Position numbers and translations under genes: made by a program
Part shown: piece after piece, positions 24,277 to 45,228 of the stretch
Layout of the letters: each line of letters begins with the position of its first letter
Position numbering within the stretch: position 1 is the first letter of the stretch
DNA from: Spirochaetota bacterium
Lineage (GTDB): Bacteria; Spirochaetota; UBA4802; UBA5550
Direction of reading: 5' to 3'
Length of the DNA: 64,000 nt
Assembly: GCA_017999915.1 (NCBI GenBank)
Contig: JAGNKX010000001.1
Location: forward strand, 817,440 to 881,439
Notes under the pieces: model-generated
Database searches by the model: none
Seen by the model: the letters and a program-made list of their open reading frames with translations, nothing else
Told to the model about the DNA's origin: nothing

Positions 24277-24984
24277 TCATCCATGGTTCAGTGAACGGAG
24301 ATAGTCGTTCAGCGCGGCCGGGTCCTTCTGCCGAAGCACCGCCTCCGTGCCCACCACGTAGCCGTCCCCGATGGAGAGGGCCCGCCTCGCGTCATCGGCG
24401 GTCTTGATGCCGAAGCCGATGATGATCTTTTTGCCGGTATGCTTTTTTATCATGCGGATTTTGTCCAGCAGCTCCGGGGACGTGAAATCCGATTGCGATC
24501 CGGTAATGCCCCGTACGCCAATAAAGTAAATGATCTCGCTTTTCGACCTGTTCATCATTTCGATATCCGATTCGCGGGACTCAAGGGTGGCGAAGGGAAC
24601 GATGGGGATGCCGAAACCCTCGTCATAAAAGAGCCGCGCCATCCTGTTGGGGAGGTCCGGGATGATCACCCCGTCGAGGGAGCCCGCCATCCTGTCAGAG
24701 AATTTTTTTATGCCATGGGAATATATGATGTTCGCGTAGGTCATGACATATTTTTTTATGTATGTATCCTTCAGGGCGACGATGGCATCCACCATGGCGT
24801 CAGGGGTTATGCCTCTCTCAATCGTGGAGTGAATGGCCCGGGCGATGACGGGGCCGTCGGCAATGGGATCATTGAAGGGGATGCCGATCTCGATAAAATC
24901 AAATCTGTTATTGGCTACCGCGTGGAAGCACTCATTAAATGTGCCCATATCCGGGTAACCGCCGGTGAGATATATCCCTTTCAT
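24277..24984 (-). CDS. trpA: Tryptophan synthase alpha subunit
   Basis: The alpha subunit splits indole-3-glycerol phosphate to indole, which passes to TrpB. It has only 235 residues against about 265 in the standard enzyme. The protein begins at YLTGGYPD, the position of the usual ITAGDPD, so the N-terminal helix is missing. The catalytic Glu and Asp are present in [14 protein letters not shown]. The [11 protein letters not shown] stretch and the phosphate-binding [11 protein letters not shown] are intact. Its ATG overlaps the trpB stop by four bases. It is the last gene of the operon. Confidence 0.93.
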
Positions 24985-26156
24985 AATTCCTCCCTGTTCT
25001 GTTGCTCGATGATGCCAAGGTCCTTGTCCCCGCGGCCCGACAGATTTACCAGCACCCGCCTGCCCCGCAGCTCGCCGGCATGGTCAATGGCCCAGGCCAG
25101 GGCATGGGATGATTCCAGGGCCGGTATGATACCCTCCAGCCTGGTGAGCTCGTGAAAGGCCCTGAGAGCCTCCTTGTCGAAAACATGATCGTACCTGACC
25201 CTGCCGGTGTCTTTCAGGTATGAATGCTGGGGCCCTATGCCGGCATAGTCGAGGCCCGCTGAGACAGAATGCACATCCCGGACCTGGCAGTTTTCGTCCT
25301 GAAGAAGGTATGAGAGGGCACCCTGGAAAATGCCCTTGCTTCCCAGGGAAAGGGTGGCGGCATTGTCGCCGGGACCGAGGGAGCGGCCCCCGGCCTCGAC
25401 GCCGACGAGACGCACCTCCGGCAGGTCCAGGAACCCCTGGAAGATCCCCATGGCGTTGCTCCCGCCTCCCACGCAGGCGATGACGCAGTCCGGGAGGAAT
25501 CCTTTTCCGCGGAAATAATCAATCGCTTCCCTGCCGGTCACCGCATGGAAGAAGGCTACCATTTCAGGAAAGGGATGGGGTCCGGCAACCGTGCCCATGA
25601 GGTAGTGGGTGCCGGTGACGTTGGTGACCCAATCCTTGAGGGAGGCGCTGATGGCGTCTTTCAGGGTGCGGAGCCCCTCGTCGACCGGCACGACTTCCGC
25701 GCCGAGAAGCTTCATTTTTTTTACATTGGGCATCTGCCGCTCCACATCGAGGCTCCCCATGTAGATGCGGCACCGGAGGCCGAAGAGGGCGGCCGCCGTG
25801 GCGGTGGCCACGCCGTGCTGACCGGCTCCCGTTTCCGCTATGACGCGGCCTTTCCCCATGTGCTTCGCCAGCAGCGCCTGGCCTATGGTGTTGTTGATCT
25901 TATGGGCGCCGGTGTGGAGCAGGTCCTCACGCTTGAGATAGAGATTGAAGCCGTATTTTTCCGACAGGTTCTTCGCATGGTATACCGGCGTCGGCCGTCC
26001 GGCGAAATCATCAAGGTAGCGGTTGAATTCTTCCATCGATGAGGCGCTGGCGGCAAATTCACGGAATGCCCGCTCCACCTCGTCCAGGGCCGGGATTAAA
26101 AGCTCCGGAACGAACTGCCCGCCGTAGGGCCCGTAAAATCCTTTATCTGAGAGCAT
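24981..26156 (-). CDS. trpB: Tryptophan synthase beta subunit
   Basis: This 391-residue PLP enzyme joins indole and serine. The PLP lysine is in [13 protein letters not shown], followed by [13 protein letters not shown]. The phosphate-binding glycine loop is [10 protein letters not shown], and the late Ser-Gly-Arg-Gly-Asp segment (NLSGRGDKD) closes the site. It overlaps trpF by 14 bases and trpA by four, so translation is coupled and the alpha-beta complex is made in matched amounts. This is the TrpB1-type enzyme by length and motifs. Confidence 0.97.
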
Positions 26157-26685
26157 TGTGTACCTCGGTAATGAATTGTTTCATCAGATTGTAATCCTTG
26201 ATCCCCCGCCGGGACTCGACCCCGCTGGACACGTCCACGCCGAAGGGGCGATATTCCCGTATGACCCCGGCGACGGTTCCTGCCCGGAGGCCGCCGGAAA
26301 TGATGAGCCGATAGCTCACATCATGGAGCCACGGGGGAAGCTCCTTCTCCTCGCCGCTGCCCCTGCTCGCGTCATACAGGAAGAGGGCGCCCTCGCGGGA
26401 CCGCTCCTCGGTGTCGCCGGCGGATATGAGACGGTCTGCCGGGCAGTTCTCATAGACCTGGACGAGATCGAAATCATGGTAGCAATCGGCCACCTCCTCG
26501 AAGGTTACTCCCACCGCTATGGTCGATACTCTGCCCCGGCCGTACAGCGCCAGCTTTCGGGCATAATCGGCGTTACAATGCCTGACGCTCCCGGGGTGGA
26601 GCACGATCCCCACGGCCGAGTATCCCAGGTCGACGGCCCAATCGATCTGCTCCAATGACGTGATGCCGCATACTTTTACGAACAT
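26143..26685 (-). CDS. trpF: Phosphoribosylanthranilate isomerase
   Basis: This isomerase converts PRA to CdRP. The general-base Cys lies in the opening VKVCGIT, and the general acid Asp is in [10 protein letters not shown] near the end. GGLRAGTV supplies the phosphate-binding glycine. At 180 residues it is on the short side of the family (about 200), with the middle of the barrel abbreviated. It overlaps trpC by 10 bases and trpB by 14. Confidence 0.9.
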
Positions 26686-27437
26686 GGCCGCACCAGGGCA
26701 TTGTGGAATTCCTTCAGCTTTGCCGCCGGGTCGCCGGCGGTCATGAGGGCGGTGCCGATCAGGTAGGCGTCGGCCCCGGCTTTCCTGAAGCGTATGATGT
26801 CGTCGGCGGTTTCAATGCCGCTTTCGGCTATTTTCATGAAATCGCCGTTGAGAGAGCCGATCGTTCCCATGGCCTTTTCCTTGTTTATGGCGAAGGTCTT
26901 CAGGTCCCGTGAATTGACGCCCACCATCTCCGGGTCCAGGGCCTTGATTTTTCTGAATTCCTCGGCCTCGTGGATCTCATAGAGTACCTTCATCGAATAG
27001 TGATGCGCGCGCCGGGTCAGAAAATAGAGTTCCCTGACGTTCAGGATAGACGCGATGAGAAGTATGAAATCCGCCCCGTGGGCAAAGGCATTGTCGATCT
27101 GGATCTCGCTTATGATGAAGTCCTTGCACAGGAGGGGTGTCTTCACCGCCCCGGCAATCTCCGTCAGAAATCCGTAACTTCCCTGGAAATAGCGGGCGTC
27201 CGTGAGGACGCTCACCGCCCCGGCGCCGCCCCGCTCGTAGAGCCGGGCCTGGCCGACGATGTCCACCGCCTGGTTGATGGCGCCCCGGGACGGAGAGGCC
27301 TTCTTTATCTCGCAGATAAAGGGCTTCTCCCTGAGATGGTCCAGGGGATCGAGGACCGCCCTGGTACGGCTCTGCGCCGAAGGGATCAGGCCCTTTATTT
27401 CATTCCGTTTGTGCTCGATTATTTCATTCAGATACAT
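26676..27437 (-). CDS. trpC: Indole-3-glycerol phosphate synthase
   Basis: This 253-residue (beta/alpha)8 enzyme closes the indole ring from CdRP. Family motifs in order are ICEIKKASPSRG, LTDARYFQGSYGFL, LCKDFIISEIQ, GVNSRDLKTF and AESGIETADD. The catalytic Lys and Glu residues are therefore conserved. It is separate from trpF, not fused as in E. coli. It starts four bases after the trpD stop. Confidence 0.95.
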   Translation of the reverse strand: MYLNEIIEHKRNEIKGLIPSAQSRTRAVLDPLDHLREKPFICEIKKASPSRGAINQAVDIVGQARLYERGGAGAVSVLTDARYFQGSYGFLTEIAGAVKTPLLCKDFIISEIQIDNAFAHGADFILLIASILNVRELYFLTRRAHHYSMKVLYEIHEAEEFRKIKALDPEMVGVNSRDLKTFAINKEKAMGTIGSLNGDFMKIAESGIETADDIIRFRKAGADAYLIGTALMTAGDPAAKLKEFHNALVRPCS

Positions 27438-27441
27438 GGTC

Positions 27442-28458
27442 CTATCCCTGCATTGCCTCTTTAAGTGAAACAGAGCCGCCCGTCAGCTCCTCAAGCTTGA
27501 CCATGGCTTTCCCCTCGGCGATGTGGTTTTTTACCAGAAGGAAACCGTCGCGCATGCCGCAGCGGTTCATGGTGCGGAGTGCAAGGGCGGTGTTCAGTGA
27601 AAAGATGTTGGACACCTCCTCGTTTGTTCCGGAAAGGCCCCCGAGGAAAAGCCGCTTCGCCTCGACGCGGTCCCTGACCACTGGCATGGGAAAGGGCTCG
27701 AAGAAATCCGACGGGTCAATGGAAAAGCGGCGGTCGTTACCATCCCCGATATGGATGCATTCGGTGGGCTCCCGGGATGATACTTCGTCGTACCCGTCCT
27801 TTGAGGCGTACACGGTAATGTTGCTTTTTCCCACCTTGTGTATAACCTGTGCGATGAATTCCAGGCGGTCTCTTCTGCTGATGCCTATGACCTGGTAGGC
27901 CGGGTCTGCCGGGTTAATGAGGGGCCCCACGAAGTTAAATATTGTGGGGACCTTCAGCTCCCTTCGGATCGCGCCAATTCCTTTCAGGGCAGGATGGTAT
28001 TGGGGCGCCACCATGAACACGTACCGGTGACGGTTGAAGTATTCCTCGGGAGAGGTGCCGCCATAGGCAAGGTCCATACCCAGCTCCGACAGGATATCGG
28101 CGGAGCCGACCACGCCGCTCTGGGCCGTGTTGCCGTGCTTGACCACGGAGCAGCCGAGGGACGCCAGGAGGATGCTCACCGCGGTGGATACGTTGACCGT
28201 GGATTTGCCGTCGCCGCCGGTGCCACAGGTGTCGATCGTATCGTTTCCGGGGGCCTCAAACCTTCGCTTGTGGCGGTCGAGGGTCGCAGCCAGGGCCGCC
28301 ACTTCATCAACGGTCTCCCGGCGGAACTTCATCGCGATGAGGGATGAGGCCACCTGGGAATCCGAGAGCCGCCCCTGGATCATGGCCTCGAAGAAAGTCC
28401 GGGCATCGTCAAAGCTGAGCCGTTCCCCGGAGTTGATCTTTTTTACCATTGCATCCAT
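27442..28458 (-). CDS. trpD: Anthranilate phosphoribosyltransferase
   Basis: This enzyme adds phosphoribose from PRPP to anthranilate. It has 338 residues, the normal length. It shows the PRPP-binding DTCGTGGDGKSTVNVSTA, KHGNTAQSG and the second Mg/PRPP region DGYDEVSS. I start at the ATG at 28458, just inside the trpG stop codon and behind a G-rich ribosome site, because the alignable protein begins there. The open frame extends 27 codons further into trpG. It is not fused to the TrpG amidotransferase. Confidence 0.95.
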   Translation of the reverse strand: MDAMVKKINSGERLSFDDARTFFEAMIQGRLSDSQVASSLIAMKFRRETVDEVAALAATLDRHKRRFEAPGNDTIDTCGTGGDGKSTVNVSTAVSILLASLGCSVVKHGNTAQSGVVGSADILSELGMDLAYGGTSPEEYFNRHRYVFMVAPQYHPALKGIGAIRRELKVPTIFNFVGPLINPADPAYQVIGISRRDRLEFIAQVIHKVGKSNITVYASKDGYDEVSSREPTECIHIGDGNDRRFSIDPSDFFEPFPMPVVRDRVEAKRLFLGGLSGTNEEVSNIFSLNTALALRTMNRCGMRDGFLLVKNHIAEGKAMVKLEELTGGSVSLKEAMQG

Positions 28459-28459
28459 A

Positions 28460-29050
28460 TCAAGCCCCCACTTTTTGAATTTCTCTCTGCGACGCGTCTC
28501 TGGCCGCGAAGTCGAGGAAGTTCGTGACGATCCTTCCACCGAACTCGCTTAAAATCGATTCGGGATGGAACTGAACACCGAAGATTTTCCGTTCATCGTC
28601 CTCGATGGACATCACGGTGCCGTCCTTTTGGGAGCGGGACGTGACATGGCGGCCGTCCATGGCCACGGCTAGGGAATGATAGCGCACCGCGGAAAAGGTT
28701 TCCGGCACATCGGTAAAGAGCACTGACCCGCCTGTCACCTCGATCCGGTCCACCTTGCCGTGCTGTATGGTGCCGGCCCTGACGATATCATACCCGAGGG
28801 TATAGGCGATGGCCTGCATGCCCAGGCACACCCCGAAGATCGGCTTCCGGCCCAGGTAATCGCCGATATAGCGGAGGGTGGTGCCGGAATTCTTCGGCGA
28901 TGACGGCCCCGGGGATAGGATGATGCCTTCGTATTCTTCGGCCGGGACAAACCTGTCGTTCTTGACGACGGCGACATCGGCGCCACATTCGTTGAAAAGG
29001 GCCTTCAGGTTGTAGGTAAAGGAATCGTAGTTATCGATCATTAAATACAT
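28460..29050 (-). CDS. trpG: Anthranilate synthase component II, glutamine amidotransferase
   Basis: This 196-residue class I amidotransferase hydrolyses glutamine to give ammonia to TrpE. The oxyanion/nucleophile elbow is GVCLGMQ and the His-Glu pair is in FHPESILSE. ILSPGPSSP is the family glutamine-site motif. The start at 29050 follows GGAG by seven bases and overlaps the end of trpE; the open frame upstream is only trpE read out of phase. Relatives also serve p-aminobenzoate synthase, but the operon makes a tryptophan role clear. Confidence 0.94.
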   Translation of the reverse strand: MYLMIDNYDSFTYNLKALFNECGADVAVVKNDRFVPAEEYEGIILSPGPSSPKNSGTTLRYIGDYLGRKPIFGVCLGMQAIAYTLGYDIVRAGTIQHGKVDRIEVTGGSVLFTDVPETFSAVRYHSLAVAMDGRHVTSRSQKDGTVMSIEDDERKIFGVQFHPESILSEFGGRIVTNFLDFAARDASQREIQKVGA

Positions 29051-30515
29051 TACGTTTCTCCAGCGTGTTGATTGTCTGTATAGCCTGGAACAGGGCGCCC
29101 AGCTTGTTGCCCACCTCATGGTATTCCTTTTCCGGATCGCTGTCATAGACGATGCCGGCCCCGGCCCGAAGGATGACCCGGTCACGCTTGACGTAGGCGC
29201 TCCGGATGACGATGCAGGTGTCGATGACCTGGCTGTAGGAGAAATAGCCGGCGCACCCGGCGTAGAAGCCCCGGGGCGATTTCTCGTACCGGTCAATGAG
29301 CTCCATGGCCCGGACCTTGGGGGCGCCCGAAACGGTCCCTGCCGGGAAGGTGTTGCAGAAGAGCCGCAGGGGCGACATGTCGTCCCTCATTGTCCCCTGG
29401 ACCTCGGAGACGATGTGGATCAGGTGGGAATAGACTTCGGGCTCGAAGGAGCTGACCACGGCGACGCTCTCCGGCGCGCACCCGGTGTAGAGGTCGTTCC
29501 GCGCCAGGTCCAGGAGCATGAGGTGCTCGGCCCGCTCCTTTTCGTCGGCCAGGAGCCTCGCTGAAATCTCGCCGATGGGGCGTCCGTCGATGCGGTAGGT
29601 CCCGGCTATCGGCTTCAGGGTCGCCGTGCGGTCCTGTATCTTCAGGTGCACCTCCGGGGAGGTGCCGCAGAGCACCTCGTCCCCGACCTTGATGTAGAAC
29701 ATGTAGGGGGACGGATTGATGTTGCGGAGCAGCCGGTACAGGTCAATGGGATTGATGGCGCAGGCGATCTCGTACTTGTTGGACAGGACCGTCTGGATGC
29801 ATTCGCCGGCGATGATCTCCTCCTTGAGGGCGCGAACCGCCTCCATGTAGGAGTCCCGGTCGAATTCCTGGCGCTGCTCCGGCTCGTTGCCGGGGAGAAA
29901 GAATTTTTTATGGCTGTGCAGTATCTCTGCCGCCATTTCCAGGGTCCGATCCGAGGCCCTGGCATAGGCGTCCCGGGGGTCTTCGCCCGAGCCGGTGAGG
30001 ACCGAGGAGGCCGCATAGAGCTTGCCCATGTGGTTGTCGAAAACGTAAAATTCATCGACCTGGAAAAACGCCATGGTGAGGCTTTCCGCGTCCTCCCGGA
30101 CCTTTTCCCGGAGGGTCCCCATGTAATTGGCCATGTCGTATCCCATGAAGCCGACGTATCCGCCGCAGAAATTGCCCATGGCGGCGTTTTTGTTCGAATT
30201 CTCGCCGGCGAGCTCGCCGACCAGGTATTCGATCGGATTGGTATCCAGGCGCTCAACGCCCCGCTCCCGGGATTCGACGGTCAGTGCCCCCTTCCGGAAG
30301 GTGATGACCCTCCGGGGACGGATGCCGAAGAAGGTGTAGCGGGAAAAACTCTTGTCGAGGTTTGCGCTTTCCAGAAGGAACAGGTTGCCGGCGTTGGAGA
30401 AATTGAAGAGGAGGCTGATGGGAGTTATCATGTCGCCGGCTATTTCCCGGTACAGGACCACGCGCCGATGGCGGCCGGAAAGTTCCGTGAATTGCTGTAG
30501 TGTAGGATAAAGCAT
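29031..30515 (-). CDS. trpE: Anthranilate synthase component I
   Basis: This chorismate-utilising enzyme has 494 residues. The N-terminal half carries the tryptophan feedback site (LLES in NLFLLESAN). The C-terminal half has the chorismate-binding motifs LLDLARNDLY, HIVSEVQG, FPAGTVSGAPKVRAMELI and GYFSYSQVIDTCIVIRS. The ATG at 30515 has AAGGTG upstream; the longer frame runs backwards through the attenuator terminator and is not real. It is the first structural gene after the trp leader, so it is controlled by attenuation as well as by the enzyme's own feedback inhibition. Confidence 0.96.
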   Translation of the reverse strand: MLYPTLQQFTELSGRHRRVVLYREIAGDMITPISLLFNFSNAGNLFLLESANLDKSFSRYTFFGIRPRRVITFRKGALTVESRERGVERLDTNPIEYLVGELAGENSNKNAAMGNFCGGYVGFMGYDMANYMGTLREKVREDAESLTMAFFQVDEFYVFDNHMGKLYAASSVLTGSGEDPRDAYARASDRTLEMAAEILHSHKKFFLPGNEPEQRQEFDRDSYMEAVRALKEEIIAGECIQTVLSNKYEIACAINPIDLYRLLRNINPSPYMFYIKVGDEVLCGTSPEVHLKIQDRTATLKPIAGTYRIDGRPIGEISARLLADEKERAEHLMLLDLARNDLYTGCAPESVAVVSSFEPEVYSHLIHIVSEVQGTMRDDMSPLRLFCNTFPAGTVSGAPKVRAMELIDRYEKSPRGFYAGCAGYFSYSQVIDTCIVIRSAYVKRDRVILRAGAGIVYDSDPEKEYHEVGNKLGALFQAIQTINTLEKRNVFNDR

Positions 30516-30548
30516 ATTGTCACCTTGCTTATAACGTTCTGAGAAAAT

Positions 30549-30574
30549 AAAAAAAGTGCGGCAGGCTGCCGCAC
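30549..30574 (-). terminator. trp attenuator terminator
   Basis: On the minus strand a perfect hairpin, GTGCGGCAG / CTGCCGCAC around one base (30574-30556), is followed by seven T residues (30555-30549). It lies between the leader peptide and trpE. A competing antiterminator can form between GGCTG (30610-30606) and CAGCC (30568-30564), which would open this hairpin. The first partner begins exactly at the leader stop codon. Confidence 0.88.
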
Positions 30575-30609
30575 TTTTTGCATAAAAACACAAATGACAC
30601 GCCGCCAGC

Positions 30610-30684
30610 CTATCGGAAGGTTCTTGCGCGCCACCACCATATGGTTTTGTTAATTGATGTTATCCTGCCCATGTCCGGGTCCAT
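30610..30684 (-). CDS. trpL: trp operon leader peptide
   Basis: This 24-codon reading frame (or 20 codons from the second ATG at 30672) has three consecutive TGG codons as codons 16-18 (30639-30631) and a TAG stop at 30612-30610. A ribosome stalled on the Trp codons leaves the antiterminator strand starting at 30610 free, while one that reaches the stop covers it. This matches classical transcription attenuation. No strong ribosome site precedes either ATG. The frame lies about 35 bases downstream of the predicted transcription start. Confidence 0.85.
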   Translation of the reverse strand: MDPDMGRITSINKTIWWWRARTFR

Positions 30685-30687
30685 GTA

Positions 30688-30753
30688 ATAGTAACTATGT
30701 TTCTATTTATAGAAACATAGTTACTATGTATAGAAACACGGTCGTTGCGTCAA
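30688..30753 (-). promoter_or_regulatory. trp promoter with palindromic operator
   Basis: TTGACG (30753-30748), a 17-base spacer and TACATA (30730-30725) form a strong promoter on the minus strand. A perfect inverted repeat with 18-bp arms (30688-30705 and 30710-30727) around four bases overlaps the -10 and the predicted start. Because half of it lies upstream of the start, it should act as DNA, that is, as a repressor operator. Each arm contains its own CATAG-3-CTATG dyad. Confidence 0.75.
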
Positions 30754-30955: not shown

Positions 30956-33535
30956 TCACCCCATCAGCCTGCCAATATGGTGGATCAGGAACGCCGCTGT
31001 CCAGGCCAGTGAAATGGTGAAAAGAGCGGAAAAAGCCGGCCATTTCCACGATCCTGATTCTCTTTTCATGGCGGCCAGCGTGGCCACGCAGGGGACATAG
31101 AGGAGCATGAAAACCATGTAACCCAGCGCAGTGACGGGATCAAAAATGGGCATCCCTGCTTCGGGCCCCGAGCTGTACCGCTGTTCTTTAATACCGGCTA
31201 TCAGGGACCGGCCGCCATCGGGAGAGTCCGTATCGGCATGATAGAGAATGCCCATGGTGCTCACGGCAATCTCCTTTGCCGCAAGGCCGGTGATGATGCT
31301 CACGCCCATCTTCCAGTCGAAGCCAAGGGGCCGCAGGGCCGGCTCGAACATTCTCCCGACCATCCCAATATAGGATTTTTCAAGGCGGTCCTCGGCTTTG
31401 CTGCGTTCCAGGGATCGTATGTCCGCATCCATACGTTTTTTGATCGAGGCCGTTGATGCAGCGCCGCGCAGACCGGCTGTCTCAATCTCCGCCTGATAGC
31501 GCTGCTGTGTGCCGGCTATTTTCGCCTCATAAGAGCCGGCGGCGCCTCCATGATCGGGAAAGCGTCCCAGTGCCCATATGAGGATGGAGGCGACGAGGAC
31601 AATGCCGCCGATCTTTTTCACGTACTCCTTGCCCTTGTCCCACATGTGGCGGGTGGTGTTTTTCATGCGGGGAGAGCGGTATGGCGGCAGCTCCATGACA
31701 AAGGGCGCTTCGACCTTTCGGAAAAAGGTTTTTTTCATGACCATGGCGGAGATCACCGCCGCCGCGATGCCGGCCATGTAAAGCCCGAAGAGAACAGTGC
31801 CGGCATGGGCGGGGAAAAAGGCGCTGATAAAAAGAACGTATATGGGGAGACGAGCGCTGCAGGACATGAAAGGAATGATGAGCATGGTCAGTATCCGGTC
31901 CTTCCTGCTTTCAAGGGTGCGGGTCGCCATGATGGCGGGCACGTTGCACCCGAATCCCATGACCAGGGGTATGAAGGACTTGCCGTGGAGTCCCAGGGCG
32001 TGCATGAGCCGGTCCATGATGAAGGCGGCCCGGGCCATGTAGCCGGTGTCCTCCATGAGGGAGATCATGAAAAAAAGTATCAGTATGCTCGGGATGAAGA
32101 CTATGACGCCGCCGACGCCGGCGATGACGCCGTCGGTCAGCAGCTCCCGCAGCAGGCCGGGCTGCAGGGAGGCCGTGATGAACCTTGAAAAAGCGGAGGT
32201 TCCGGCCTCGATCCATTCCATGGGATACTTCCCCGCGGCAAAGGTGAGCTGGAACGTGATCCACATGAAAAGGAGGAAAATGGGGAATCCCAGGATCTGG
32301 TGGGTCAGAATCCGGTCTATTTTTTCGCTTATGGTGACCTCAGGGCGCGGTCCCGGCCGGTATGTCTCACGGAGGGCGCCGGAAACGAAGCCGTACCGCG
32401 CGTCGGCGATCAGGGTTTCGCTGTCCTCCTTCAGCTCCGATTCCAGGAAGCGGATTTCCTTCTCGGCCTGCCGGAACAGGGCCTCTGCGTTATCGTCAGT
32501 GCAGGTCAGGTGTCGCTTAGTATCCGCGTCCTTTTCAAGGAGTTTGACCGCCGTGTATCGGGTCGGGACCGGGGATGGCGTTTTGCCCGAGTCGGCCAGC
32601 CGCTTCCGCAGCGAGGCAATGGCCTTTTCTATATCCGCGCCGTAATTGATGGTGACGTCCCGGACGGCGGGTTCTCGCTTTTCATGGACCGCTATGACCG
32701 TGTCAAAGAGATCATCGATGCCTTTGCCCGTGGAACCCACGGTAGGTACAAAGGGCATTCCCAGGAGCTTGCCCAGGGCCTCATGGTCAAGGAGGTCGCC
32801 CTTCTTTTCAAGCTCGTCGTACATGTTCAGGGCGACCACCACCGGCACGCCCATTTCAATGAGCTGCGAGGTAAGATAGAGGTTGCGCTCGAGGTTGGAG
32901 GCGTCAACGACATTGATGACCAGATCCGGCCCGTTCTCAAGGATATGCCTTCTCACGCAGAGCTCCTCCGGCGAATAGGCTGAAATCGAATAGGTGCCCG
33001 GGAGGTCGGTTATGATAAAGGTGTGCTCTCCGTGCCTGAACCGGGCCTCTCTCGATTCCACGGTCACGCCGCTGTAATTGCCGACCCGCTCCCTCGAGCC
33101 GGAGGCGTGATTGAAGATCGTTGTCTTTCCGCTGTTGGGATTACCCACCAGGGCCACATGGATCGTCCTTGAATCATCGCCGGAATTGAACGGCTCCCCG
33201 TGAGCCTGATGGTTGCCGAGGCGGCGCCTGTATCTTCGTGCCGAATGATCCGAATCAAAGCATTGGCCTCTTATTTCAGCGTTCAGGCGGGTTTGCCCGA
33301 CATCGAAGTATCGGGGAAATTCCACTTCAATCAGGCGGGCTTCGGACCGGCGGAGGGAAATGTTTGAATCCATCAGCCTGTATTCGATGGGGTCTTTCAT
33401 GGGGGCATTTTTTATAACGGTCACGGATTTCCCTTTGACGAATCCCATTTCAGTGATTCTCTTGCGGAAGGGGCCCTGGCCGCGGACGTTGGTTATTATC
33501 CCCCGTTCCCCCTTTGTTAATTCAGATAATTTCAT
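30956..33535 (-). CDS. feoB: Fused FeoA-FeoB ferrous iron transporter
   Basis: This 859-residue inner-membrane protein combines a FeoA SH3-like domain (residues 1-75; KRITEMGFVKGKSV) with FeoB. After a charged linker the G domain shows GNPNSGKTT (G1), DLPGTYS (G3) and NMYDE (G4). The membrane part has two Gate regions with the conserved Cys in FGCNVPAIMATRTLE and FMSCSARLPIYVLF. A hydrophilic loop of about 60 residues lies before the last Gate. Fusion of FeoA to FeoB is known in several phyla. The gene starts about 40 bases after a promoter at 33.6 kb and is followed by the Cys-rich accessory gene. Confidence 0.95.
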   Translation of the reverse strand: MKLSELTKGERGIITNVRGQGPFRKRITEMGFVKGKSVTVIKNAPMKDPIEYRLMDSNISLRRSEARLIEVEFPRYFDVGQTRLNAEIRGQCFDSDHSARRYRRRLGNHQAHGEPFNSGDDSRTIHVALVGNPNSGKTTIFNHASGSRERVGNYSGVTVESREARFRHGEHTFIITDLPGTYSISAYSPEELCVRRHILENGPDLVINVVDASNLERNLYLTSQLIEMGVPVVVALNMYDELEKKGDLLDHEALGKLLGMPFVPTVGSTGKGIDDLFDTVIAVHEKREPAVRDVTINYGADIEKAIASLRKRLADSGKTPSPVPTRYTAVKLLEKDADTKRHLTCTDDNAEALFRQAEKEIRFLESELKEDSETLIADARYGFVSGALRETYRPGPRPEVTISEKIDRILTHQILGFPIFLLFMWITFQLTFAAGKYPMEWIEAGTSAFSRFITASLQPGLLRELLTDGVIAGVGGVIVFIPSILILFFMISLMEDTGYMARAAFIMDRLMHALGLHGKSFIPLVMGFGCNVPAIMATRTLESRKDRILTMLIIPFMSCSARLPIYVLFISAFFPAHAGTVLFGLYMAGIAAAVISAMVMKKTFFRKVEAPFVMELPPYRSPRMKNTTRHMWDKGKEYVKKIGGIVLVASILIWALGRFPDHGGAAGSYEAKIAGTQQRYQAEIETAGLRGAASTASIKKRMDADIRSLERSKAEDRLEKSYIGMVGRMFEPALRPLGFDWKMGVSIITGLAAKEIAVSTMGILYHADTDSPDGGRSLIAGIKEQRYSSGPEAGMPIFDPVTALGYMVFMLLYVPCVATLAAMKRESGSWKWPAFSALFTISLAWTAAFLIHHIGRLMG

Positions 33536-33754: not shown

Positions 33755-35302
33755 ATGGATACTGGGAAGATTACATACGAGATCATCAAGACCGGACAGG
33801 ACCTGGACACCATCCTGGTCAGATCCGGCGGCAGGGAAGTGCCGCTCCACAGCAGGGTAAATCCCGAGAGGGATTCCGATCTCCTGAAGGATAAATTCGA
33901 TCCCTCCCGCTATGATTTCCTCGTCATCCTGGGCGTGGGCCTTGGATATCACTGCCTTCCTTTGAAAAACCTTATCGACCGGTACAGGCGCGTGATCCTC
34001 GTTGACATACTGGATGGAATTGAGGCGGCCATTGCCGCCAACAGGATCACCTCGTTTCTGCTGAAGGATACCCGCATCACCCTGGTGGCGGGAAAGACGG
34101 CGGCAGAGGCGGAGCGCATTGTTGCGGAAAATCTGGACATGGATGACGTGCGGGGCATTTCGGTGCTGGAACATCCCGCGTCAATGAGGATATTCGGCGA
34201 TTATTATGATTCAATAAAAAAGTCCATTGATAAGATAATCGCCATCAAGGCGGGAAACAAGGCCACGCGGCAGGCCTTTGGCATCCGCTATCTTCGCAAC
34301 GTGTTGTTGAATTTTACCATGATAAAAAAGGCCCGTCCCGTGCGGTCGCTCTTCAATGCCTTTGCCGGGTATCCGGTCATTATCGCCGGGTCCGGGCCGT
34401 CCCTGGACGACGGTAGCGCGATGATAGGGCGGTACCAGGACAGGTTTTTCATCATTGCCGTTGATTCAACCCTGCCGGTGCTGGAACAGAAGGGGATACG
34501 TCCCGACATCGTCATCACCATCGACCCGCAGCCCTACGCGCGGGAGCATTTCCTCGGGTGCGGCACCGACGGCGTCCTGGCCGTGTATTCCATCTCGTCC
34601 CATCCTTCCCTGGTGCGGGGCCTGAGAGGTTTCGTGTCTTTCAACTCCCATCCCTTTTCGCAGCTTGCGTCGGAGGTGTACGGCGGGCAGGTAGGATCCA
34701 TTGATTCCGGCACGGGCAATGTCTCCGGGGACGCGGTGAGCCTCGCGGTCAAATGCGGGTTTTCATCCATCGGCATTACGGGCCTCGATTTTTCGTTTTC
34801 CAGGTTCGCCGTGTATGCCCGGGGGACCGCGTACCAGAAGCGGTACGGCGCCTTCTTCCAGGATCGATTTTCCACCGTGGAAGGATTGAACATGAGGTAT
34901 ATCATGACCTCCAGCGGCGGAACCAAGCACGGAGGCATATTCACCCGGAAATCCTTTTTGCATTATCATCATGCCCTGGAGGACTATATCCGGGACAATG
35001 CCCTGTCATCGATAATCGCCCTCAATGGCCGCGGGATCCCCCTGGCCGGCGCGGTCCCCATGGACATGGAGAGTTATATCAGGCTCCATTGCCCGAAGAT
35101 CATAGATAAAAAAAGGGTCCTTGAAGCAATAGATTCATCGGCGCGGGAAATCGACGCCGCCCCTCTGGCGGATGCCCTTGGGAGGATCGTGAATAATGTC
35201 CTTTTCGATGAGCTCCTGGAGGCGTCTCTGGGAGGGAGGGTCGATGATACCGTTAAAAATCGATACCGGACCATGGCGCGTATCGCCTCCTCGCCCGGAT
35301 AA
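33755..35302 (+). CDS. DUF115 (MptE-like / Maf-related) protein
   Basis: This 515-residue protein belongs to the DUF115 family. After an N-terminal alpha/beta region (LGVGLGYHC, a nucleotide-sugar or SAM-like glycine loop near 63-71), the core domain carries PVIIAGSGPSLDD near 210-222, FFIIAVDSTLPVL, PDIVITIDPQP and the GLDFSF segment. Relatives include archaeal 6-hydroxymethylpterin diphosphokinase MptE and the flagellin glycosyl-transfer Maf proteins. A motility role is possible in a flagellated host, but no flagellar gene lies nearby. A TTGAAA-16-GATAAT promoter lies so close that the mRNA leader would be only a few bases, and no ribosome site is visible. Confidence 0.75.
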   Translation: MDTGKITYEIIKTGQDLDTILVRSGGREVPLHSRVNPERDSDLLKDKFDPSRYDFLVILGVGLGYHCLPLKNLIDRYRRVILVDILDGIEAAIAANRITSFLLKDTRITLVAGKTAAEAERIVAENLDMDDVRGISVLEHPASMRIFGDYYDSIKKSIDKIIAIKAGNKATRQAFGIRYLRNVLLNFTMIKKARPVRSLFNAFAGYPVIIAGSGPSLDDGSAMIGRYQDRFFIIAVDSTLPVLEQKGIRPDIVITIDPQPYAREHFLGCGTDGVLAVYSISSHPSLVRGLRGFVSFNSHPFSQLASEVYGGQVGSIDSGTGNVSGDAVSLAVKCGFSSIGITGLDFSFSRFAVYARGTAYQKRYGAFFQDRFSTVEGLNMRYIMTSSGGTKHGGIFTRKSFLHYHHALEDYIRDNALSSIIALNGRGIPLAGAVPMDMESYIRLHCPKIIDKKRVLEAIDSSAREIDAAPLADALGRIVNNVLFDELLEASLGGRVDDTVKNRYRTMARIASSPG

Positions 35303-44259: not shown

Positions 44260-44385
44260 AAGTTGAAAGGTGATGGTGACCGATTAATTATTAAACATTG
44301 AAGAGCTAACAACGACCCTGCTTAACCGAAGCCTGACGTTATGCGTCAGATATTGATGTAGGTTAAGTGGGGTTTTTTATTTTTT
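44260..44385 (+). ncRNA. Candidate small RNA with terminator
   Basis: No gene on this strand precedes the hairpin. The pairing ACCCTGCTTAACC (44315-44327) with GGTTAAGTGGGGT (44361-44373) matches at 11 of 13 positions. It encloses a second hairpin CTGACG/CGTCAG (44333-44338, 44344-44349) and is followed by TTTTTT. A TTGACA at 44226-44231 with AT-rich sequence at the -10 position could start a transcript near 44260. The 3' end overlaps the end of the DUF3800 gene in antisense. It is a prediction; no known RNA family is recognised. Confidence 0.4.
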
Positions 44386-45228
44386 ACCGCGCTTTGTAAG
44401 ATCATGATTATAATCTGAATGATTTGGAACAAACCGCCAGTGCATATAAGGGGAATTCCATGCGTTTATATTGTTTCCCTGAAGACCCGTTGAGACACCG
44501 ATGTTAAAATTTTTATGAATTTTTCGTATTTCTTGTAAAATCACTTTGTATAAGGCCTCTTTCGCTTTAGTTCGACTACCTCTCCTTTTTTTACCAGGAA
44601 TTTTTTCTTTATGTTTATCGTTAAGCCTGAATGAAATTGAACCCAATAATATATCAATGCACTGCGCAAGCACATGGTCATGAGAACGTATTTCTGTTAT
44701 GTCTTCTTTGTGCATTACTACGTTTGCCACCTTTAGTTTAGAATTTTTTTGAAGGCCGAGTATATACCCTTTAAATCGTTCAATTTTTTCCGCTGTGTCA
44801 GGCAATTTATCCAGATATATTCGAATCCTGGTCCCTGGTGATGTATGATTGATAAATTCTAATCCAAAAGCGTGTTTTAGAAATTGGTAATACAACAGAA
44901 AATATTCCTGTTCAGTCTGTTCACGTGAAAGGCCAACCGGAACATAGGCATTTTGACGAAACATTATCCTGATTTTAATATTGTTTTCCGAAATTTCATC
45001 GAACAAAACTTTTATAAATTCTATGTATTTTTGAAGATATCGTTCTGTAACTTTATTCCACTTGATTTCACCATGAAAATTGAGTTGAGTTTTCAATACA
45101 TTTAATCTGTTGGTAATCCTTTGATATTGTGAAGCACCGACGATAAGCCCACCATAGAAATTTGAATAATATTTTCCTCTGGAATCTGATTCATCGCAAA
45201 AAATTATATATTCTTTTTCTGGCTTCAC
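44377..45228 (-). CDS. DUF3800 protein
   Basis: This 283-residue protein has the DUF3800 opening IIFCDESDSRG, where Asp and Glu sit on the first strand, and a later Asp in IRIYLDKLPD plus the HDHVLAQCIDILLG helix. The fold is related to RNase H-like nucleases, and the acidic residues would bind metal. DUF3800 genes are often found on mobile elements and beside restriction systems, without a proven activity. The start is GTG. It follows hsdR by 49 bases and is the last gene of the minus-strand restriction operon. Codon usage is much more AT-rich than in the host genes to the left. Confidence 0.8.
   Translation of the reverse strand: MKPEKEYIIFCDESDSRGKYYSNFYGGLIVGASQYQRITNRLNVLKTQLNFHGEIKWNKVTERYLQKYIEFIKVLFDEISENNIKIRIMFRQNAYVPVGLSREQTEQEYFLLYYQFLKHAFGLEFINHTSPGTRIRIYLDKLPDTAEKIERFKGYILGLQKNSKLKVANVVMHKEDITEIRSHDHVLAQCIDILLGSISFRLNDKHKEKIPGKKRRGSRTKAKEALYKVILQEIRKIHKNFNIGVSTGLQGNNINAWNSPYMHWRFVPNHSDYNHDLTKRGKK

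Follow-up and report, generated by a model that had tools for sequence, protein, structure and literature searches.

How does a spirochaete control its tryptophan biosynthesis genes, and does it use the means known from enterobacteria? The question is raised by a regulatory region on the minus strand of the DNA analysed here, a stretch of 64,000 nucleotides (the window) from a Spirochaetota genome of 5.46 Mb, where it lies between feoAB and trpEGDCFBA. An earlier sequence-only reading had proposed a complete trp attenuator with classical logic, and this is confirmed: its features are present and recur in relatives, and folding with a ribosome mask fits. That reading was incomplete: it overlooked, in the promoter, a pair of operator-like palindromes that is linked to a TrpR-like repressor. 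We hold it very probable that the region controls trpEGDCFBA through two tryptophan-sensing layers, a repressor operator and an attenuator. The analysis shows the sequence features, their conservation, the co-occurrence of the operator with TrpR genes and the computed folds; the start site, ribosome stalling, read-through and Trp-dependent binding of the repressor are inferred.

On the minus strand the order runs from a FeoA-FeoB fusion gene and a small FeoB-associated protein through the regulatory region to trpE, trpG, trpD, trpC, trpF, trpB and trpA (Table 1). Named relatives of the window's TrpE come from the Spirochaetes bacteria RBG_13_51_14 (81%) and RBG_16_49_21 (79%), which places the window in an uncultured lineage of the Spirochaetota. 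Elsewhere in the window, a 515-aa protein encoded at 33755-35302 (+) has a weak, sub-cut-off match to the flagellin modification protein PseD (34.1 versus 670 bits).

Table 1. Features of the trp regulatory region and its operon, and the trpR-like locus of the same genome (window coordinates unless marked otherwise).
Feature	Position	Strand	Basis or remark
FeoA-FeoB fusion gene	30956-33535	minus	
trp promoter, -35-like hexamer TTGACG	30748-30753	minus	sequence; TTGAC kept at the same place in relatives
Candidate operator, first copy, GTTTCTATACATAGTAAC, differing from GTTTCTATnnATAGAAAC at one position	30720-30737	minus	conserved in relatives; co-occurs with TrpR-family genes
-10 region TATACATA, spacer 15-17, within the first operator	30725-30732	minus	TATA(C/T)ATA conserved in five congeners
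Candidate operator copy 2, GTTTCTATAAATAGAAAC, perfect	30699-30716	minus	motif also upstream of the genome's own trpR-like gene
trp leader peptide ORF	30610-30684	minus	likelier start ATG 30672 (20 aa); longest ATG 30684 (24 aa)
Three consecutive Trp codons, TGGTGGTGG	30631-30639	minus	sequence
1:2 hairpin, arms 30635-30626 and 30602-30593; sequesters region 2 without a ribosome	30593-30635	minus	fold of 30540-30640
Leader stop codon TAG	30612-30610	minus	sequence
Antiterminator (2:3), AGGCUG 30611-30606 with CAGCCU 30568-30563 and a partial inner stem	30563-30611	minus	
Intrinsic terminator hairpin (3:4), then T tract	30551-30579	minus	fold, sequence, kept in relatives
trpE, anthranilate synthase component I	29031-30515	minus	TIGR00564, 410.7 bits; start ATG 30515
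trpG, glutamine amidotransferase	28460-29050	minus	PF00117; overlaps trpE
trpD	27442-28458	minus	PF00591/PF02885
trpC	26676-27437	minus	PF00218
trpF	26143-26685	minus	PF00697
trpB	24981-26156	minus	PF00291; adjoins trpA
trpA	24277-24984	minus	PF00290
trpR-like gene with a further long trpB-like gene (462 aa) immediately after it	L004 1420-3204 (G000:C1 about 469989-471773)		twin operator in promoter

The leader ORF encodes MDPDMGRITSINKTIWWWRARTFR followed by a stop codon, and its tryptophans are codons 16-18 when counted from the longest start. This was the numbering given in the sequence-only reading, of which the Trp-Trp-Trp run stands while the choice of start is the less likely one: the leader ATG of the closest relative, G012, aligns with codon 5 here (ATG 30672), which makes MGRITSINKTIWWWRARTFR, of 20 residues and with Trp at positions 12-14, the probable leader product. 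Inspection of the leader revealed no strong Shine-Dalgarno sequence, which counts against attenuation.

The terminator, AAAAAGTGCGGCAG-C-CTGCCGCACTTTTT, has 13-14 perfect pairs rather than the nine first described, and the seven T residues noted with them are found when those within the arm are counted. It folds at -18.9 kcal/mol, with none of 200 shuffled sequences as good, and is the sole terminator-like site in the region. The stop codon had been placed exactly where the antiterminator begins, and the pairing does start at A30611/G30610, so that TAG overlaps its first two bases. The stop thus overlaps region 2, with the last Trp codon some 20 nt before it, an arrangement in which a ribosome would mask region 2 only when standing at the stop.

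Folding with and without ribosome masking, the check suggested alongside the original proposal, behaves as the attenuation model demands. Placing the ribosome on any of W16, W17 and W18 gives the core antiterminator pairs a predicted probability of 0.92-1.0 before region 4 is made, compared with 0.22 without a ribosome; at the stop codon the ribosome covers region 2 and makes the antiterminator impossible. Once region 4 exists the terminator reaches a probability of 1.0, and at equilibrium it beats the antiterminator in every ribosome state, so the attenuation decision must be kinetic. Classical attenuation is likewise decided kinetically.

The antiterminator of the window is modest, with six pairs followed by an interrupted stem. 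When the stretch after the Trp codons was paired with the 5' arm of the terminator and compared with shuffled versions, the duplex came to -13.3 kcal/mol versus -12.1 for shuffled partners (p 0.24); judged from the window by itself, its strength does not exceed chance. Over 33 loci the duplexes exceed their shuffles, with a Fisher combined p of 1e-16, or 2e-6 with one median per family-level group, and a marginal 0.05 in the window's own family; the genomes in these tests are related by descent, and the p values are therefore too small.

At the trp locus, an Rfam scan at gathering thresholds gave no match and a permissive scan gave nothing near the gathering score; the Trp_leader model RF00513 reached 13.0 bits there (E 6.6), below its gathering score of 41 bits. 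The sole Rfam match in the window is a DUF3800-VIII RNA at 44312-44376 (+), with 63.5 bits against a gathering score of 40.2; it abuts the 3' end of a 283-aa ORF on the opposite strand (44377-45228, -), which may be its DUF3800 partner.

Comparison was made with the regions upstream of trpE in 78 spirochaete genomes. In 28 of the 78, a short ORF holds three or more Trp within five codons, where dinucleotide-preserving shuffles give an expectation of 0.24; no other residue comes near such an excess in the same run test, the next best being M (4 versus 0.7) and E (9 versus 2.5). By a looser criterion, a leader is combined with a terminator at 33 loci (35 rows minus the doubtful G033 and G039, with G021 also doubtful), belonging to family-level groups f1, f2, f3, f4, f6, f7, f9, f27, f28, f41 and others. 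In the family to which the window belongs, a leader with at least two clustered Trp is present in 12 of 18 upstream regions, accompanied by terminators, and G018 has a thirteenth leader with a single Trp. These peptides diverge until little is common to them except the Trp run, and among congeners the position of the leader between promoter and terminator is conserved. Because relatives of divergent sequence repeat the combination of Trp leader, stop codon at the antiterminator and terminator, and because the masked folding fits, classical ribosome-mediated attenuation is supported as the best reading.

Group f2 shows the pairing strikingly: GUCCACC, placed directly ahead of the stop codon, has two possible partners, the Trp codons themselves (GGUGGAC) and a GGUGGAC of the terminator arm. 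At the f2 loci L069, L071, L073, L074 and L076, leaders with three or four Trp codons precede two terminators, one after the other and alike in sequence, and a GGTGGAC-like sequence is common to the Trp codons and the terminator arm. At L031 (G009), in the region from about -250 to -10 before trpE, an insertion with repeat-like CGCAAAGTCGCAGAGACGCAAAG parts the attenuator from trpE.

The second layer, the more interesting part of the result, lies in the promoter. Its TTGACG was not picked up as a -35 element by a consensus scan at the thresholds of that scan, and the -10 hexamer is ambiguous. Two tandem palindromes, 21 bp apart, follow one another here, the first covering the -10 region, and a whole-genome search placed copies of GTTTCTATnnATAGAAAC with no or one mismatch at trp and at the trpR-like gene and nowhere else. 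A Trp-repressor-like protein probably binds this twin palindrome. The 37 motif sites, which were selected by similarity, agree at nearly all 16 defined positions. Allowing two mismatches added two genome sites (C4:146765 and C9:227769), about the control level, which gives no ground for adding members to the regulon; a looser pattern for the half-palindrome, ACATAGTnACTATGT, was dropped because it matched less often than its control. The site at G000:C9:227769 (L131 1501-1518), itself at chance level, lies some 100 bp ahead of a gene for an amino acid permease, which could be a Trp transporter.

The protein that would bind this site scores 74.9 bits against PF01371, for which the curated cut-off is 27, aligns with solved Trp repressors, and resembles TrpR more than YerC (34.9 against 42.2). 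It is called TrpR-like because it is below the cut-off of the NCBI TrpR equivalog TIGR01321 (55.2 versus 67.25 bits). The arrangement of operator, trpR-like gene and trpB-like gene is shared by 12-13 members of the window's family and, outside it, by G125, G043 and G099. With up to two mismatches, the motif precedes trpE in 31 of the 42 genomes that have a TrpR-family gene and in none of the 36 that lack one (Fisher p 8e-13), and outside the window's family in 15 of 24 versus none of 36 (p 2e-8); the 36 span many families, although shared ancestry shrinks these p values. Shuffled trpE upstream regions yielded the motif once in 1560.

Taken as one mechanism, the two layers would work as follows. 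When tryptophan is plentiful, the TrpR-family repressor, encoded elsewhere beside the trpB-like gene and expected to bind its own promoter as well, would occupy the twin palindrome over the -10 region and exclude RNA polymerase. Transcripts starting near 30720 would encode a leader peptide of 20-24 residues with three Trp codons. If charged tRNA-Trp is scarce, the ribosome would stall on these codons and the 1:2 hairpin could not form, leaving region 2 to pair with region 3 and transcription to read into trpE; if tryptophan is sufficient, a ribosome at the stop codon would cover region 2, and the 3:4 terminator would end transcription at the T tract.

Three other accounts of the region have to be weighed against this. 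The palindromes might act in the RNA, as a stabilising 5' hairpin, or serve a regulator other than TrpR, and an RNA hairpin of 18 pairs is indeed possible (-29.3 kcal/mol with flanks, z -8.6), part of it within the transcript. The motif, however, overlaps the -10 region, recurs at two unlinked promoters that have only tryptophan metabolism in common, tracks the presence of TrpR-family genes, and in some genomes stands immediately before trpE with no leader, all of which makes this account improbable. The repressor might instead suffice, the leader ORF and terminator being a decayed attenuator or a constitutive one that lowers basal expression; G004, G013 and G017, members of the window's family that have the operator and lack the Trp leader, would suit such a view, as would the weakness of the window's antiterminator by itself. 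Against it, Trp runs are kept in those 12 of 18 family members despite diverging codons around them, which needs selection on the Trp codons, and families f2, f3 and f9 keep leaders although they have no TrpR, so that we regard sole control by the repressor as quite improbable. That a terminator merely happens to lie upstream of trpE beside an accidental TGGTGGTGG frame, the leader having no regulatory role, would agree with an antiterminator not above shuffles in the window, but the comparative data contradict chance, both in the excess of Trp clusters and in the leader position kept by congeners, and this account has hardly any probability left.

Considering the phylum as a whole, two-layer control by operator and attenuator is one of several states. 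Both operator and Trp leader are found in f1, f4 and f6, an operator without a Trp leader in f12, f15, f19 and f23, and an attenuator without TrpR in the f2, f3 and f9 already mentioned; this mosaic of lineages speaks for repressor and attenuator being functional modules gained or lost separately. It seems likely that the Spirochaetota possess a phylum-wide Trp regulon, with an operator of its own, GTTTCTATnnATAGAAAC, and a diverged TrpR, joined lineage by lineage with ribosome-mediated attenuation (both layers or one), with a history of mixing and loss of the layers separate from that of the enterobacteria. The comparison yields a testable operator motif and a genome mosaic of repressor only, attenuator only, both, and neither.

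A survey of attenuators in 2010 (PMC2965389) knew, by its authors' account, of no leader-peptide system demonstrated beyond the Proteobacteria and Actinobacteria, and then added the Firmicutes, and the 2016 survey of TrpR regulons (PMC5343134) covered Proteobacteria only, with TrpR there in the gammaproteobacteria. The literature searched, which left most subscription journals outside, held no report of a spirochaete trp attenuator or operator, and priority is not thereby proved. Control of trp in two layers, as in E. coli, appears to exist in the distant phylum Spirochaetota. With comparative support for both layers together, this hints that such an arrangement either has a greater age or evolves more readily than one would think from the textbook standing of E. 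coli.

The likeness to E. coli and other enterobacteria (PMC5343134 and general knowledge) extends to a leader with tandem Trp codons whose stop lies at region 2, to 2:3 and 3:4 hairpins that are predicted to compete, to a probable repressor site overlapping the promoter, and to a trpR that is probably autoregulated. Unlike E. coli, the spirochaete, a member of another phylum, has three Trp codons rather than two, a different operator sequence, and a trpR followed by a trpB-like gene, and its leader has no similarity to the enterobacterial Rfam model at the scores given above. The trp attenuators of the actinobacteria Corynebacterium and Streptomyces (PMC1262725) resemble it, as far as the part of that paper drawn on here goes, in being classical attenuators upstream of trp operons, with double or triple UGG codons and a G+C-rich terminator; they differ in phylum and in sequence, and that part describes no TrpR-type operator. 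The trpRBA operon of Chlamydia (PMC7755916) likewise joins trpR and trpB in one operon, but its second layer is the iron-dependent repressor YtgR and not a leader peptide, whereas in the spirochaete trpR precedes a trpB-like gene and the main trp operon lies elsewhere.
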